A stretch of DNA of 43,489 bases from positions 1-43,489 of the forward strand of contig JAJTGR010000011.1 in assembly GCA_021299375.1 (NCBI GenBank), in the 5' to 3' direction. The first letter of the stretch is position 1, and each line of letters opens with the position of its first letter. Position numbers and translations under genes: made by a program. The notes under the pieces are model-generated. The model saw only the letters and a program-made list of their open reading frames with translations. It was not told the DNA's origin and did not search any database. Shown here one piece after another: positions 2,102 through 9,549 of the stretch. Source of the stretch: Gemmatimonadota bacterium (GTDB taxonomy: Bacteria > Gemmatimonadota > Gemmatimonadetes > Gemmatimonadales > Gemmatimonadaceae).

Positions 2102-5100
2102 GTGTCGTCCGACGTGTTCAGCGGTACCGCCGCGCCCGCCACCGATCCGCTCCTCAACCGCCTTCGTCTGGCCACGGCGGGGAGCTACGACGTGGCCGGG
2201 GAACTCGGACGCGGTGGAATGGCCGTCGTCTTTCTCGGCAAAGACCTGAAGCTCGATCGGCTTGTGGCCATCAAGGTCATGGACCCGCGGCTCAGCCTCA
2301 CGCCGGGCATGGCGGAACGCTTCCTGCAGGAGGCGCGCATCGCCGCCCGTCTGCAGCATCCGCACATCATCGTGGTGCACGACATCCGCGAGGACCACGA
2401 GCTCATCTTCTTCGTGATGAGTTTCGTGGAAGGTGCTGCCCTCGACGACCTGTGCCGTCGGCCCGAGCCAATGCCCATCGACCAGGCCCGTTGGATTCTG
2501 CTGCAGGCGGCGCGTGCGCTGGCCCATGCCCATGCCGAGGGGGTCGTCCACCGTGATGTGAAGCCGGCGAACATCATGGTGAATCCCAAGGGCGATGTCG
2601 TGCTCACCGATTTCGGCATCGCCAAGGCAATCGGCGGGACGGCACTCACGAAGTCGGGGACGCAGATCGGCACGCCGGTCTACATGAGCCCCGAGCAGTT
2701 TTCGGACAAGGCCGTGGGACCGGCCTCCGACCAGTATGCGCTGGGCGTGACGGCGTATCAGCTGCTTACCGGGCAGCCGCCCTTCACCGGCGAGCTGTAC
2801 CGGCTCATCGCCGCGCACGGCAACGAGGCGCCGGTGCCCCTGCGGGAGCGACGTCCGGATTGTCCGGCGTTCCTTGCCAACGCCGTCATGCGCATGCTGG
2901 CCAAGCAGCCCGAGGAGCGCTGGCCGTCGCTTGACGATGTGGCCGAGGTGTTCGGGGCGAACCTGCCAATGGACGGTGGCCCCGCGCGCCGGCAGTTGGC
3001 GTTGGCCGCGGCCGAAATCCAGCGCGAACGGGCACAGGTGGTGCCGGCCTTGAGCGCACGCACGCCGGTCAGCCCGGTGCCGGTAGGCCCTGCCCGCACA
3101 CCGACCCCCACGCCGCGCGTCATGGCGCCGGTGGTGACACTGTCGCCGCCGGGGGCGACGATCTTCGCCGGGGGCGCGATTGAGCTGGGCGTACGCGTCA
3201 TGTCGGCGCAGGGTGAGCCGGTCACGGGCGTCAGCTTGCTGTGGAGCAGCAGCAATCCGGCCGTCGCCACCGTCGGTGGCGACGGGATCGTGCGTGGAGT
3301 CGGCGCTGGCACGGCGCAGGTGCAGGTCACCGCCAACGGCACGACCGCGGCTGCCACGATCACGGTCGCCCTCGCGCCGCTGACGCGGCTTGTCCTCGAC
3401 CCGGTCCCCGAGCCGCTGCGCATCGGCGATCGCGAGACGCTGGTGGCCACCGTGTTCGACGCGACGGGGCAGGTGCGCCACGAGGTGCCCGTGCAGTGGC
3501 GCGTGATCGAAGGCGCCGACATCGTGCGCGTGGACGAGGCGGGCGTTCTCGAGGCGCTGGCGCGCGGTGACGCACTGGTGAATGCGCAGGCGGGGCCCCT
3601 GCAGGTCGACGTGGCGCTGCGGGTGGAGGCGCGGCCGGTGGTGGTGCTGCGACTCGTGCCGCTCACGGGGCCGCTCGAACTCGGGGCCGCGGTGCCCCTG
3701 CAGGCCGTCTGCCTCGATGACCGCGGCACGGCCGCCGTGCATCCGGTTCGCTGGCGCTCACGCAGCGCAGGCATCGTGCACGTCGACGCCAACGGGGTGG
3801 CCCTCGCAATCGCACCCGGGCAGGCCGTCATCGAGGCCGAGGCGGCGGGATGCACCGCCACGCTGGTGGTGGACAGCGTCGAAGCCCCGATCGCGGCGCT
3901 CGCCTTCGGGACACCGACGCTGTCGGTGGACGTGGGCGAGATCCTCCCGCTCCCGTTGCGTGTGACCGATGCGAGCGGGGCGCCGCGCTCCGCGCACGGC
4001 GTGACCTTCCTGTGCGACAAGCCACAGTGCCTCGCCATCGACGGCGAGCGGCTGCAGGCGACTGGGCTGGCGTCGGGCGTGGTTCGGGTGATCGCTGCCG
4101 TGGAGGGCTCGCTCACCCCCGAATCGTCGGCGGCGCCGCGCGCGACCTGCACCGTCACGGTGCGGCCGGTGCTGGCCGTGGCGCTCGACGTGGAGCCAGC
4201 AGTCATCGACGTGCGGGGGCAGGCGCGGGTGCGGGTCGCGGTGACGCCGCGCGACACCCGTGGCCGCGACGTGGCGGCGCTGGCCATTCGGGCCGAGACG
4301 CGGGCGCCGGACGTGGCCACCGTCCGCACGATCGGCCCTCGGGCCTTCGAAGTCTCCGGTGTGGCCGACGGGCAGACGTTGCTCCGCGTGCAGGCGACCA
4401 ACGTGGACGGGAGTGTACTGGCGGTCGAGATACCGCTCCGTGTTTCGGGCGCCCCCGTCACGAGTTCGCCGGTCACGGACGGGCCGGAAATGCGTGCGCC
4501 GAGTACGACGGCGCGTCCGCTCACGGTGACCGGGGGGGTGGCGCGCTCGCTCGAGTCGACGTGGTCCTCGGACCCGCGGTCATCCGTGGCCGCAGCGCCG
4601 GTGGCGGCGTCGGCGTCCTCCGTGGCGCCCGCAGCGCCGTGGCGTCGGGTGGGGCCGTTCGTGGGCGTCGGAGCGGTACTCGCGGTGACGGTGGTTTGGC
4701 TGCTGCGCCCCTCGGCGCCCCCGGACGTGACGAACACGATGGCGGAGACAGCGCCCGTCGTGATCGCCAACCCTGCCAGGCCGCTGCCGTCAAGCAGCGC
4801 CGCCGCGGTCTCGGCCCGTGAACCCGTCACCGCGAGAAGGGAGCCGGCGCCGCCGGCTGCGGGTGCGGAGGGGCGGGCAATCCCACCATCACCGCGAACG
4901 GCCTCGCCTCCACGTGCGGGAACCGCGGTGCCGAGAACGACGGCTGGAGCGCCGGCGGCACCGGCCGGCAGTGCGGTCGGACCGTCGAGTGCGGCGCCGT
5001 CCCGACCGGCCACGGCCACCGCGCCGGAGACGGTCGGCACCTCCACCGCACGGCCGCCGGAGCGCGCCACCGAGTCCAGGTCCACCGAGGCCGCCCCCGC

Positions 5101-5419
5101 GGCGCCGACCATGAACGACGTGCGGCACGTGGCAGACAGTCTCGTGCGGGACATCCGGCGTGGCGGGTCCACCAGCCGCGACCTCGTGGCATTCTTCAAG
5201 GACGGCGATGGGCATGCGGTCAAGGTCCCGCAGCCACCATACCTGCAGGACGAGAGCGCGGGCGTCGTGCGGGCCCAGATCGACCTGCAACTCGAGAAGT
5301 TCGACGGTGGCGGGCGTCCCTGGTCGCGCTTCGCGCAACTCGTATTCACGATCTCGCGCCGCGAAGGGGCGATCGTGGTCCAGAACGTCCAGCTGGGGCC
5401 GCTGCAGCGCATCCGATGA
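2102..5419 (+). CDS. Ser/Thr protein kinase with Ig-like (BIG2-type) repeats and one membrane segment
   Basis: The 1105-residue product begins at GTG 2102. Residues about 29-280 form a complete PknB-type kinase: glycine loop ELGRGGMAVV (34-43), Lys58 in VAIKVM, Glu77, the catalytic loop HRDVKPANI with Asp152, DFG at 170-172 and SPE at 196-198. A Pro-rich linker follows. Residues about 345-800 carry repeated Ig-like modules; the first shows WSSSNPAVATV, typical of bacterial BIG2 domains. One hydrophobic helix (GPFVGVGAVLAVTVVWLL, about 850-868) is followed by about 130 residues of Ala/Pro/Thr linker and a compact C-terminal domain of about 100 residues. The only membrane helix lies after the Ig-like block, so that block should be on the same side as the kinase. 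That is unusual for repeats normally found outside the cell. Confidence 0.9.
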   Translation: MSSDVFSGTAAPATDPLLNRLRLATAGSYDVAGELGRGGMAVVFLGKDLKLDRLVAIKVMDPRLSLTPGMAERFLQEARIAARLQHPHIIVVHDIREDHELIFFVMSFVEGAALDDLCRRPEPMPIDQARWILLQAARALAHAHAEGVVHRDVKPANIMVNPKGDVVLTDFGIAKAIGGTALTKSGTQIGTPVYMSPEQFSDKAVGPASDQYALGVTAYQLLTGQPPFTGELYRLIAAHGNEAPVPLRERRPDCPAFLANAVMRMLAKQPEERWPSLDDVAEVFGANLPMDGGPARRQLALAAAEIQRERAQVVPALSARTPVSPVPVGPARTPTPTPRVMAPVVTLSPPGATIFAGGAIELGVRVMSAQGEPVTGVSLLWSSSNPAVATVGGDGIVRGVGAGTAQVQVTANGTTAAATITVALAPLTRLVLDPVPEPLRIGDRETLVATVFDATGQVRHEVPVQWRVIEGADIVRVDEAGVLEALARGDALVNAQAGPLQVDVALRVEARPVVVLRLVPLTGPLELGAAVPLQAVCLDDRGTAAVHPVRWRSRSAGIVHVDANGVALAIAPGQAVIEAEAAGCTATLVVDSVEAPIAALAFGTPTLSVDVGEILPLPLRVTDASGAPRSAHGVTFLCDKPQCLAIDGERLQATGLASGVVRVIAAVEGSLTPESSAAPRATCTVTVRPVLAVALDVEPAVIDVRGQARVRVAVTPRDTRGRDVAALAIRAETRAPDVATVRTIGPRAFEVSGVADGQTLLRVQATNVDGSVLAVEIPLRVSGAPVTSSPVTDGPEMRAPSTTARPLTVTGGVARSLESTWSSDPRSSVAAAPVAASASSVAPAAPWRRVGPFVGVGAVLAVTVVWLLRPSAPPDVTNTMAETAPVVIANPARPLPSSSAAAVSAREPVTARREPAPPAAGAEGRAIPPSPRTASPPRAGTAVPRTTAGAPAAPAGSAVGPSSAAPSRPATATAPETVGTSTARPPERATESRSTEAAPAAPTMNDVRHVADSLVRDIRRGGSTSRDLVAFFKDGDGHAVKVPQPPYLQDESAGVVRAQIDLQLEKFDGGGRPWSRFAQLVFTISRREGAIVVQNVQLGPLQRIR

Positions 5420-5519
5420 CTCGTTCCTCCTCTCCTCCTTACCGAGCCCCCCGTTGACTACGTCGAATGTCGGCGCGACGTCTCGCGCGCCCAGCACACG
5501 CCATCGCCCTCTGGTCCGG

Positions 5520-6115
5520 GTGACGGCCTTGCGCTCACTCGCACTGCCGCTCGCGCTGCTCGCGGCTGCGCCACGCGTATCGGCCCAGGCCGCGCAGAAG
5601 TTTCGTTCCACGTCTCCGCTCTCGGTACATCGTTCGAGGGCAGCAGTGGGTCTGCGATCGGCGGTGTGGGGATCGAGCCGCAGCTGCGCTTCAATCGCCT
5701 GTACTCGAGCGAATCATTCGGGACGCTGACGGTTGGCGTTGGCGGGCAATTCACGCGACACGCGTCCGGCGGTCAGAACATCAGCATCAGCGGAGCGTTT
5801 CTCGAGCCGCGGTGGCTTCCCAATACCAGTTCTGAGAAGCTGTTCCCGTACGTCGCAGGCCGTCTCGCGGTATTGAACCAGTCCAACAATTTCGGATCCT
5901 CGTCAGGCGGCACGGCCTTTGGGGCGGGTGCAGGCGTGGCCTTTCTGTGGAGCAAGCGCGTGAATCTCGATGCTGGCGTGGTGCTGGTGCGACAGAAGTT
6001 CGGCGACTTCCAGTTCTCCAACGGTCAAGCCGGGGCCTTCAACGCCTTCAACACCTACGCCGCGAAGATTGGGGCCAGCTTTGGGTTTCCGGCGAGGGCG
6101 AGGCAGGCTCCGTGA
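5520..6115 (+). pseudogene. Outer-membrane barrel-like protein with an apparent frameshift
   Basis: A signal peptide is read from GTG 5520 (VTALRSLALPLALLAAA, cleavage near VSAQA at about 5588). The mature protein is in another frame, starting near 5594: AEVSFHVSALGTSFEGSSG, then GIEPQLRFNRLYSSESF and barrel-like strands, ending GASFGFPARARQAP at 6115. Adding one base in the stretch 5588-5596 would join the parts into a protein of about 198 residues. The alternating, aromatic-rich pattern and the C-terminal GASFGF strand suggest a small outer-membrane barrel. A sequencing error or a real mutation could explain the shift. Its stop overlaps the GTG start of the next gene, so the two look like one operon. 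Confidence 0.55.
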
Positions 6116-9100
6116 ACGTCTGGACGCGCGGGCACGGCGCACGGCGCCTGCTCTTGGGGGCGGGCATGGCGTTTGGCACCGCTTGTGGTGGCGGTGATCC
6201 TATCGTTCCGGTACCCCCCGCTCCCCCGCCCCCCACGCCGGCCGTCTCCGCCGTGACGGTGTCCCCCGGTAGCGCCAGGGTCCGCGTCGGCCAGCCCGTC
6301 ACGCTTACCGCGTCCGTGACCGCCTCCGGCGGCGCGTCCACCGACGTCTCGTGGAGCACCAGCGACGCGTCCGTCGCCACCGTCCCCGAGTCGGGCGGCA
6401 ACACCGTGTCCGTTACCACGCTGGCGCCCGGTACGGTCACCATCACCGCGCGCTCGCGCCTGTCGAGCAGTGTGTCCGGCTCTACGGTCATCACGGTAGA
6501 GCCACGCCCCGACGCGATCGCCGCCGTCACGCTGTCGCCACCGCAGCCGTTCTCGCTCGCGGAGCAGGCCACCGCCGATCTCACGGCCACAGCCACGGGC
6601 ATCGAGCAGGGTGCCACTGTCTCGTACGTGTTCAGCTCGAGCAACCCGGCCATCGCCACGGTCTCGCCGGTCGGTGCCACCGGCGCTGCCCGGGTCACCG
6701 CGGTCGCTCCCGGTGGCCCCGTGCAAATCACGGCGACCGCCACAGGCAGCGGCCCGCTGCTCACTACGGTGTCGCGCGCGACCTCCGTGGCGGTCACCGT
6801 CACGGCCCTGCCGTCGGCGTGCACCGGGTTCACCCTCGAACCGCGAACCATCGCCCTCGCCCCAGGCGGCATCCAGGCCATCGTGGGCACGGCCACGGGG
6901 CGCGCCGCCGGCTCGGCGGCGCGCTTCACGTTCGTGTCGTCCAACGTGGCGGTGGCCACGGTCGACTCGCTCGGGCGAGTCACGGCGGTCGCTCCTGGCA
7001 CTGCCAGCATCGCCTGGACGGGCACCTGCACCGGGCCCGGGCTTCGCCCATTCAGCTCCAGCGAGACCGTGCCCGTCACTGTCTCGGCTCCGCCCGCCCT
7101 GCTTGGGGTGTCACTCACGCCGGCTACGGCCACCGTCCGGGTGGGCCAACAGGTCACCCTCACGCCATCGTTCGATCGGGCTTCACCGTCGGTCTCCGTC
7201 GCCTGCACCTTCGCCAGCGACAGCACCGCCATTGCCGTCGTGTCGAACAGTGGCCTGGTCAGCGGCGTCGCCCCGGGGCGCGCGCCCATCACCGTGTCCT
7301 GCACGGGTACCGGCACCGGCCTCTCAGCCACGACACGCACCGCGTCGGCGCTGGTGACTGTCACCGCCGCCACGAACGCGTGCACGGCCGTCGCCCTTTC
7401 GCCCAATCCGGCCTCGGTCACCGTCGGTTCGACCAGTTCGCTTGCCGCCGTGACGGGCACCGCTGGCGCTGGCGTGGTAGTCTCGGGCACGTGGTCGAGT
7501 TCGGCCACGAGCGTTGCTACGGTGGCAGGTGGCTCCAACGTCGTGAACGGCGGGCAGAACTCGACCAGCGGCACGGTCACCGGCATCGCGCCGGGCACGG
7601 CGGTCATCACCTATACGGCCTCGTGCAGCGGGGGCGGCTTTACGACCAACCAGGTGCAGGCCGCAACCAGTGTGCTCGTGACGGGCATCACCGTACCGCC
7701 CATCGCGTCCTGGGACGCGTACCTCGTGGGTGGGCCGGTGCGCGCCGACGTCCTCACTCGCGGCTGGGCCGCGTCGGCCACGACGTGGTTCGTGGCCGGC
7801 TCCGACGACGTGAGCACCGCCGGTGGGGGACTTTGGCGCACCACGGACGGCGGCGTCAACTGGAGCAAGGTGGCGGAAGTGTCCTCGCGCATCACCGCTG
7901 TGACCGGTACGAGCGCGACGGACGTCTGGTTCGGCACCGCCGATGGGCGGATCCTCCAGTTCACCGGCAGCGGCACGGTATCCCGCCGGAGCGCGGGGGG
8001 CGACGGCATCTTCGGCCTCTATGTGTCCGGGACCACGGCCTTCGCCATTACCGGCACGAAGCGCATCGAGTTGGCAGTGTCCGGCGGTCCCTTTGCGCTC
8101 ATGACCAACGCGGCACTCGGCGGGCTCAATCTGTACCACATCAACGGGTCCGGGCCGACTGACGTATTCGCGGCCGGTGACTCCGGTGTGGTGCTGCGCT
8201 GGAATGGTACGGCGTGGGCGCGGAGCTTCACCATCGCCGATCAGCCGCTCATCAGCGACATCTACGTGGCCGGGCCAGGCGCCGTGTGGGTCGGTGGGAC
8301 CACCTGTGCCGCCGGGTGCGTTGGTCGCCTGGCGCGGCTGTCCGGGTCGGTCTGGGTGAACGAGACCGCACTGAGCATCCCGTACGTCGATGCGATTGCC
8401 GGCAGTGGGACGAGCGATGTCTACGTCCTCAATTTCCCTGGCGATCTGCGCCGCTTCAACGGCTCTGCGTGGACCACGGTCAACACGGGTGCGCTTCGCT
8501 GGAATGATGGGCGTCGGCTCATGGTGCCGCGGGCCGGCGGACCAGTCATCGTGGGCTCGTACCGGGCCAGCATACAGGAATTCACGGGAACCAGCTGGAC
8601 GACGCGGTCGGTCGTGCCTGACTTCTACGACGCCGCGACTTCGACGGGCGGTACATCCTACTTCGTGGGCGACACGCGCACCATCATTGGCGCCAGCGGC
8701 GGCGTCGCGTTCTCGGCGGCGTTCACGTCCCAGGACGTCCTCTACGCCGTCCACCCCGTGAGCGAGACCGAACTCTACGCCGGCGGCGTCAACGCGATCG
8801 TGCGCGTGGTGGACGGACAGGAGGTGGGCACGTCCTCAGTCGGGTACACGGTGCTCGACGTGCACGGCGCGGGAGGCACCATCTTCGCCGTCGGCACGGC
8901 CGGGGGCATGTCGCGCCTCGCGGGGACCACGTGGACTGCCGTGAACAGCGGTGTCAGCAACACACTGCGCGCCATCTGGATGGCCTCCCCCCGCTTCGGC
9001 GTGGCCGGCGGTGAGAACGGCACACTGCTGCGCTACGACGGATCGACCTGGCAACGCCTCTCCAGCCCCACTACGGCGCGCATCGTCTCGGTGTGGGGTG

Positions 9101-9549
9101 CCGACTCGGCCAACGTCTGGATTGCCACCGAACTTGGCAACGTGCTGCGCTGGAACGGCACGGCCTGGTCGTCCTACCTGCCGGCCGACGGGCTGCGCGC
9201 GCTCGCCGGTGGCGCGAACTCGGCGCAGGATCTCTACCTCGCCACGACGGTGGGGCTCCGCCGCATCAGCAACAACGCGGTGACGACTGTTCCCAATCCG
9301 TCGTTGGCGGGGGTCACCCTCCCGTGGAGCATGTCCGTGCTGACCAGTGCGGGGCTCGGAGCAGCGGTGGGACCGAACGGCGTGCTATGGACGGGGCGAC
9401 CATCGTCGGCGCTGCGCGCCATTCGCGCCGCGGGCGTTACCGCCCCACGGGACGCGATTCTGCAGGAGGCCGGGCGCGGCACCCCCATGCCACGCCCCAC
9501 GCGGTCTGGCGCGGGAAGCAACAGCACCTGCCGCGCCTCCCGCTGCTGA
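6112..9549 (+). CDS. Large secreted protein with five Ig-like repeats and a beta-propeller
   Basis: GTG 6112 overlaps the previous stop as GTGA, and the product has 1145 residues. The N-terminus (RRLLLGAGMAFGTAC) looks like an export signal ending in Cys25. The box GTAC is poor for a lipoprotein because it lacks Leu at -3. A Pro-rich spacer is followed by five BIG2-like modules at about 45-527, with motifs such as VSWSTSDASVATV and FSSSNPAIATVSP. The rest, about 530-1110, is a propeller of repeats such as GLWRTTDGGVNWSKV, ATDVWFGTADGRILQ and ANVWIATELGNVLRWNG. Such proteins usually sit on the surface and bind partners; no catalytic residue is evident. The last about 40 residues are basic and low in complexity, so the true C-terminus may have drifted by frameshift. 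Confidence 0.82.
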   Translation: MNVWTRGHGARRLLLGAGMAFGTACGGGDPIVPVPPAPPPPTPAVSAVTVSPGSARVRVGQPVTLTASVTASGGASTDVSWSTSDASVATVPESGGNTVSVTTLAPGTVTITARSRLSSSVSGSTVITVEPRPDAIAAVTLSPPQPFSLAEQATADLTATATGIEQGATVSYVFSSSNPAIATVSPVGATGAARVTAVAPGGPVQITATATGSGPLLTTVSRATSVAVTVTALPSACTGFTLEPRTIALAPGGIQAIVGTATGRAAGSAARFTFVSSNVAVATVDSLGRVTAVAPGTASIAWTGTCTGPGLRPFSSSETVPVTVSAPPALLGVSLTPATATVRVGQQVTLTPSFDRASPSVSVACTFASDSTAIAVVSNSGLVSGVAPGRAPITVSCTGTGTGLSATTRTASALVTVTAATNACTAVALSPNPASVTVGSTSSLAAVTGTAGAGVVVSGTWSSSATSVATVAGGSNVVNGGQNSTSGTVTGIAPGTAVITYTASCSGGGFTTNQVQAATSVLVTGITVPPIASWDAYLVGGPVRADVLTRGWAASATTWFVAGSDDVSTAGGGLWRTTDGGVNWSKVAEVSSRITAVTGTSATDVWFGTADGRILQFTGSGTVSRRSAGGDGIFGLYVSGTTAFAITGTKRIELAVSGGPFALMTNAALGGLNLYHINGSGPTDVFAAGDSGVVLRWNGTAWARSFTIADQPLISDIYVAGPGAVWVGGTTCAAGCVGRLARLSGSVWVNETALSIPYVDAIAGSGTSDVYVLNFPGDLRRFNGSAWTTVNTGALRWNDGRRLMVPRAGGPVIVGSYRASIQEFTGTSWTTRSVVPDFYDAATSTGGTSYFVGDTRTIIGASGGVAFSAAFTSQDVLYAVHPVSETELYAGGVNAIVRVVDGQEVGTSSVGYTVLDVHGAGGTIFAVGTAGGMSRLAGTTWTAVNSGVSNTLRAIWMASPRFGVAGGENGTLLRYDGSTWQRLSSPTTARIVSVWGADSANVWIATELGNVLRWNGTAWSSYLPADGLRALAGGANSAQDLYLATTVGLRRISNNAVTTVPNPSLAGVTLPWSMSVLTSAGLGAAVGPNGVLWTGRPSSALRAIRAAGVTAPRDAILQEAGRGTPMPRPTRSGAGSNSTCRASRC

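Follow-up and report, generated by a model that had tools for sequence, protein, structure and literature searches.

A Gemmatimonadota kinase with Ig-like domains predicted between its catalytic domain and the membrane

On which side of the membrane do the immunoglobulin (Ig)-like domains of a bacterial receptor kinase lie when the only membrane helix comes after them? This question is raised by an open reading frame (ORF) at positions 2102-5419 (+ strand, start codon GTG, product of 1105 residues) of the window, that is, the whole stretch of 43,489 nucleotides of contig JAJTGR010000011.1 from a Gemmatimonadota bacterium. Domains of the Big_2 type are usually extracytoplasmic in bacteria, which is common usage rather than a formal criterion, and because Big_2 is read as a surface domain, annotation pipelines and topology intuition alike would put the array outside. 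The explanation that we favour, with a probability of roughly 0.7 for the whole, is a kinase with its N-terminus in the cytosol, a cytosolic scaffold rod of Ig-like domains and an NTF2-like input domain in the periplasm. Should the array indeed lie inside, an 'Ig-like' match would no longer imply export, and bacterial receptor kinases would include a class with a repeat module acting on the cytosolic side.

Domain order and membrane helix of the window protein

The protein comprises the following features, given in window coordinates and in residue numbers of the protein (for the Ig repeats, ORF numbering minus 12); most Ig assignments come from a home-made hidden Markov model (HMM).

2186..2923, + strand: Hanks-type Ser/Thr kinase domain, residues 29-274 (Pfam PF00069, Pkinase, E 4.8e-47)
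2924..3130, + strand: kinase-Ig linker, residues 275-343, with a TPVSP motif; top 19-residue Kyte-Doolittle mean 0.79, no membrane helix
3131..3379, + strand: Ig-like domain 1 (Big_2), residues 344-426 (PF02368 and home-made HMM)
3386..3637, + strand: Ig-like domain 2, residues 429-512 (home-made HMM, AlphaFold2 beta block)
3644..3889, + strand: Ig-like domain 3, residues 515-596, with Cys537 and Cys584 (home-made HMM, AlphaFold2)
3896..4171, + strand: Ig-like domain 4, residues 599-690, with Cys638, Cys643 and Cys683 (home-made HMM, AlphaFold2)
4181..4435, + strand: Ig-like domain 5, residues 694-778 (home-made HMM, 3e-8, and AlphaFold2)
4436..4648, + strand: Pro/Ala/Ser/Thr-rich linker, residues 779-849, ending in WRR directly before the helix (sequence)
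4649..4705, + strand: single membrane helix, residues 850-868 (VGPFVGVGAVLAVTVVWLL), predicted N-terminus in (hydropathy, flanking charge)
4706..5107, + strand: Ala/Pro/Ser/Thr-rich tether, residues 869-1002 (134 residues), predicted periplasmic (sequence)
5108..5416, + strand: C-terminal NTF2-like domain, residues 1003-1105, predicted periplasmic (AlphaFold2 fold, structural matches)

The sequence-only reading of this locus had placed a sole hydrophobic helix at about residues 850-868, after the Ig-like block, and our hydropathy scans, which used three scales including that of Kyte and Doolittle, agree: this is the only strong 19-residue hydrophobic segment of the protein (Kyte-Doolittle mean 2.25), the next-best mean outside it being 1.63 at residues 513-531. 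That segment and residues 414-432, the runners-up on two of the three scales, were considered as a second helix and rejected, both lying inside the confidently predicted beta block. A helix between kinase and array, as in PASTA receptor kinases, was looked for by hydropathy at residues 290-345 in particular and not found (best 19-residue mean 0.79 in residues 275-345), nor did we find an N-terminal signal, or with it evidence for secretion of the kinase, in residues 1-60 (best mean 1.08).

The kinase domain is in good order, clearing the PF00069 cut-off (161 bits against 31.7) with all its catalytic motifs intact (glycine loop GRGGMAV, Lys58 in AIK, HRD at 150-152, DFG at 170-172), and its best-matching solved chain is PknB of M. 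tuberculosis (E 1.5e-50). The five Ig repeats follow one another in tandem from residue 344 to 778 with 2-4 residues between the HMM envelopes. A curated Big_2 score exists for the first of them, which matches PF02368 at residues 367-422 (44.2 bits, cut-off 22.8) and resembles the Big_2 domain of 7r3t (Z 13.6, root-mean-square deviation (rmsd) 1.7, 36% identity over 84 residues), and the home-made HMM together with AlphaFold2 assigns domains 2-5. Within residues 280-1105, for which structure prediction had been proposed, AlphaFold2 returned an all-beta chain for residues 335-795 from four sequences, with a mean predicted local distance difference test (pLDDT) score of 88.5 and a predicted template modelling score of just 0.47, so that the angles between the domains are not defined. 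Other structural look-alikes of the array include S-layer, invasin-type and LigA arrays as well as titin I65-I70 (Z 8.4) and filamin rods (Z 9.0). Among the 32 kinase ORFs of at least 250 residues that we examined from the genome of the window, this one alone carries Ig repeats.

Beyond the helix, AlphaFold2 predicts for residues 990-1105 a cone-like alpha+beta fold of the NTF2-like type (pLDDT 86.6). The structural matches are ketosteroid isomerase (Z 9.6, rmsd 3.1, 97 aligned residues), the periplasmic domain of DotI (Z 9.3) and NTF2 (Z 8.9); Foldseek ranks the CaMKII hub first (E 2.9e-3) and gives nothing at or below 0.001, and a Pfam scan of the full-length protein to E 1, whose filters often drop weak matches, yielded no NTF2-like family. 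A periplasmic domain of this modelled kind would fit a sensor role. The sequence-only reading had left only this small domain outside; in our prediction it lies there together with the long tether. No Cys occurs beyond residue 683, and the tether is therefore free of it. The order of the domains, the intact catalytic motifs, the one helix and the predicted Ig fold are what the window protein itself shows; its relatives add the same order and topology marks that run through the family.

Topology marks among the relatives

Because the helix assignments come from hydropathy scales, we made the relatives the main test of topology. With a profile (A2) built from the kinase and Ig domains 1 and 2 we searched overlapping sets of Gemmatimonadota genomes, 179 at the level of the family, 288 at that of the order and 395 at that of the phylum. 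The most complete matches, taken along with most kinases of the genome of the window, yielded 132 distinct kinase ORFs, 61 of them with Ig repeats. In these 61 proteins, all Ig repeats precede the helix in 23, stand on both sides of it in 20 and follow it in 10, the last being the PknB-like order; five have no helix, and three are truncated too early to show one. The automatic 19-residue scan chose a strand over the helix in L063 (genome G058), and helix positions were set by hand there and in L011, L088, L180, L189 and L197, as well as in L009, where the hand-set position is that of the scan; the weak helices of L159, L161 and L162, missed by a 17-residue scan at the first threshold, were placed by eye. 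The claim that the domain order differs from that of PknB-type receptors thus stands for the window protein and for all five complete members of its closest clade (six rows, full support) and fails for the ten relatives with PknB-like order, which means that the position of the helix varies within the family.

Do the relatives bear the marks of a cytosolic array? In none of the 48 proteins with pre-helix Ig domains or no helix does the segment from the kinase to the first Ig domain hold a hydrophobic stretch (17-residue Kyte-Doolittle mean of at least 1.5). In 49 of 53 proteins the 15-residue flank of the helix that faces the kinase and Ig domains holds more Lys and Arg than the opposite flank, with four ties and no reversal. 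The cysteines are uneven as well: 63 of the 138 Ig domains ahead of the helix contain Cys (an odd number in 55) versus 0 of the 67 behind it, and the contrast is seen within single proteins in 19 of the 20 that carry Ig domains on both sides, the remaining one, L183, being Cys-free on either side. Counted over any domain, the post-helix Cys total is even in 52 of 53 proteins (none in 36, two in 12, fourteen in four), the sole odd total being the single Cys of L182; in the stretch from kinase to helix, odd totals are frequent (22 of 53). Such a pattern is to be expected if the cytosol is reducing and the periplasm oxidising; passages of PMC12421883 deal with even cysteine counts of exported proteins. 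Six DsbA-like matches and one VKOR in the genome of the window make an oxidising periplasm plausible.

The composition of the repeats, compared in a first set of 48 proteins, follows the same division: Asp and Glu make up 10.7% of pre-helix Ig domains versus 8.1% of post-helix ones and 5.3% of 180 non-kinase repeats, and Ser, Thr and Asn 17.0% versus 20.8% and 28.3%, respectively. The pre-helix repeats are also richer in Cys than the 180 non-kinase repeats; the total charge of the Ig domains does not differ between the two sides of the helix in this first set (p 0.14).

In some relatives little or nothing could be outside. Five proteins of one genus (L079, L081, L082, L083, L084), forming one clade with full support in the Shimodaira-Hasegawa-like approximate likelihood ratio test (SH-aLRT), are predicted soluble kinases with three Ig domains that end 0-23 residues past the third of them and have no start signal, and a further protein, L105 (892-3267), is tail-anchored, consisting of kinase, four Ig domains, helix and stop codon with no outer domain. 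These six keep the array without an outer domain, which indicates that it is not merely part of an outside sensor. In addition, L055 and L056 have zinc-ribbon matches ahead of the kinase, which may be taken as another cytosolic sign for the N-terminal side. The position of the helix, the positive-inside charge, the asymmetry of the cysteines, the soluble relatives and the tail-anchored one all agree with the earlier claim that the Ig domains share the cytosolic side with the kinase, and we consider it highly probable that the array is cytosolic with tether and C-terminal domain outside.

As a separate observation on the outer parts of these proteins, the four with fourteen post-helix cysteines each (L178, L179, L196, L197) have exactly that number, and a post-helix stretch of L197 looks RCC1-like.

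Possible roles of the array and competing explanations

What could an array of surface-type domains do inside the cell? In the scenario that we prefer, the protein would be a single-pass membrane kinase inserted N-terminus in, with its five Big_2-type Ig domains forming a cytosolic rod that separates the catalytic domain from the membrane, and with a long flexible tether carrying the NTF2-like domain into the periplasm. There this domain may take input, either from a ligand or through self-assembly of the kind seen in NTF2-like hub domains. The rod, given the 2-4 residues between its repeats, might be a stiff scaffold keeping the kinase clear of the membrane, and its surfaces could be offered for kinase-kinase contact or for docking of substrates. 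Whether it would serve as rigid spacer, docking platform or dimer scaffold we infer from layout, and the scaffold or docking role as such seems to us evenly balanced. On a broader scale, and with slightly less than even confidence, we suggest that Gemmatimonadota turned Big_2 surface modules into an intracellular signalling rod, the helix coming to stand after, inside or before the array or being lost, and the cytosolic array becoming a regulated scaffold, a counterpart in layout to the Ig-flanked cytosolic kinases of muscle.

Several points weigh against this scenario. All the topology marks are computed, from sequence or from models. The charge bias of the window helix itself is small (two Lys/Arg on the N-terminal side, one on the C-terminal side, in 20-residue flanks). 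The loci were mostly picked by a query of kinase plus adjacent Ig, which makes the layout shares biased and no measure of frequency. The Cys contrast may not be phylogenetically independent: well-supported branches of the Ig tree yield only three independent pre/post pairs, in about two of which the trait goes the same way and in none the opposite way, and a sign test is not significant. The proposal that the last ~100 residues are the sensor has to reckon with the six relatives in which the array persists and outer domains are missing altogether. Finally, close orthologues share 26-43% identity in the Ig domains versus 67-74% in the kinase, which does not suggest one fixed, conserved binding face.

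The low identity is also what one would see if the cytosolic array were a passive and freely expanding filler, Big_2 repeats having been copied into the kinase linker and tolerated there without function. The exported proteins of these genomes abound in Big_2 repeats, so that donor sequence would have been at hand (an Ig-block match was obtained in 61 of 61 genomes searched, and the second gene downstream of the kinase encodes a Big_2 protein), and the number of pre-helix repeats ranges from 1 to 7 among the relatives. Such drift, however, is at odds with the exactly three repeats of all five soluble members and with the history of the trait: on a kinase tree of 59 rows, the presence of pre-helix Ig domains requires about 4 changes versus about 11 for post-helix ones, and it follows that the cytosolic array is the steadier trait, outer repeats coming and going. 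Moreover, the pre-helix domains group separately from exported ones (21 changes, versus a mean of 92 after shuffling) in an Ig tree of 83 retained columns, whose many unresolved forks do not settle the origin of individual repeats. We therefore regard a passive filler as unlikely.

Could the Ig block, alternatively, be exported through an undetected helix or by an unusual route and sense the outside as in PASTA kinases? The usual surface location of Big_2 domains, the ten relatives with Ig domains only after the helix and the weak charge bias of the window helix would fit; but the lack of a hydrophobic segment ahead of the array, here and in all 48 proteins, the unpaired-looking cysteines confined to pre-helix domains, and the soluble and tail-anchored relatives make this explanation very improbable. 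That the kinase itself is secreted and the C-terminal domain cytosolic hardly deserves credence, for nothing speaks for it beyond the ability in principle of a single-pass protein to insert either way, and against it stand the missing N-terminal hydrophobic segment, a charge bias that is never reversed, the zinc-ribbon matches and a periplasm that lacks ATP, as stated in a passage of PMC11032199.

Known systems and genomic neighbourhood

How does the window protein, read as a kinase with a cytosolic array, compare with known kinases? Like PknB, PrkC and StkP, it has a cytosolic Hanks kinase, one helix and a C-terminal outer domain; unlike in these PASTA kinases, where the helix joins the kinase to the outer repeats (so described in part of PMC6213207), five Ig domains precede the helix here. 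An Ig-like fold is present in PrkC of S. aureus and B. subtilis, on the outer side, according to sections of PMC5786024 and PMC3601408. PASTA repeats are absent from the 13 Pfam families listed for the window protein at E up to 1, and assignment to the PASTA receptor kinases of NCBIfam (NF033483) was rejected, with a score of 275.5 against a cut-off of 450 and a match limited to residues 27-287. Filing it with the anti-phage defence kinases was likewise weighed and put aside: the PADLOC models PD-T4-6 and mad6 match just the kinase part and linker (for instance, residues 20-338), as other Hanks kinases would.

With Big_2 (PF02368) surface proteins, adhesins and S-layer-type Ig arrays the protein shares domain family and fold; those arrays are exported, and the pre-helix repeats here contain more Asp, Glu and Cys and less Ser, Thr and Asn. 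The single-pass Hanks kinases of Planctomycetota that carry TPR or WD40 arrays likewise form large lineage-specific families, with the difference that their repeats are mostly predicted periplasmic, as read in an excerpt of PMC11032199, and ours cytosolic. A search of the open-access PubMed Central literature found no description of a bacterial kinase with cytosolic Ig or Big_2 domains. In eukaryotes, proteins of the titin and twitchin type join a kinase in the cytosol to a rod made of Ig domains. The likeness is one of layout and does not imply kinship, given that the domains here are Big_2-type, the protein is membrane-anchored and Z values such as those obtained can reflect a common arrangement. 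Taken together, the sequences make this very probably a variation on known Hanks kinases in which surface-type Ig domains are used inside the cell, and the proteins with Ig domains on both sides of one helix offer a natural within-protein test of the effects of compartment on one fold.

The linker behind the kinase domain contains a motif of the TPxSP type, TPVSP (residues 321-325, window 3062-3076), a possible phosphorylation or docking site. Such motifs occur in 27 of the 61 Ig kinases versus 2 of the 71 other kinase ORFs in the sample; Ig kinases of several layouts carry them, including relatives of PknB-like order, which marks the motif as a feature of the kinase clade and not of the Ig array.

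Two genes follow the kinase gene on the same strand:

5420..6115, + strand: outer-membrane beta-barrel protein, adjoining the kinase gene (reading frame of the mature barrel; homologue in L009)
6112..9549, + strand: Big_2-repeat protein with a lipobox-like N-terminus (GTACGGG; Big_2 in five stretches, 122.7 bits)

A barrel homologue comes after the kinase in L009 and L065 as well; that of L009 matches OMP_b-brl, and Pfam gives no match for the copy in the window. In that copy (5520-6115) a part resembling a signal peptide is in another frame than the mature barrel, with an apparent frameshift near 5600 that is either real or an assembly error. The Big_2-repeat gene overlaps the barrel stop codon (gtga), and its product, with a long C-terminal region, is presumably a surface lipoprotein, judging by the lipobox-like pattern. 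A functional link of the kinase with the barrel and the lipoprotein-like gene is possible. Elsewhere in the 4.48-Mb genome of the window (G000) there is no shortage of related genes, kinase-family matches numbering 38 in all, several of them as a tandem cluster on contig C35.

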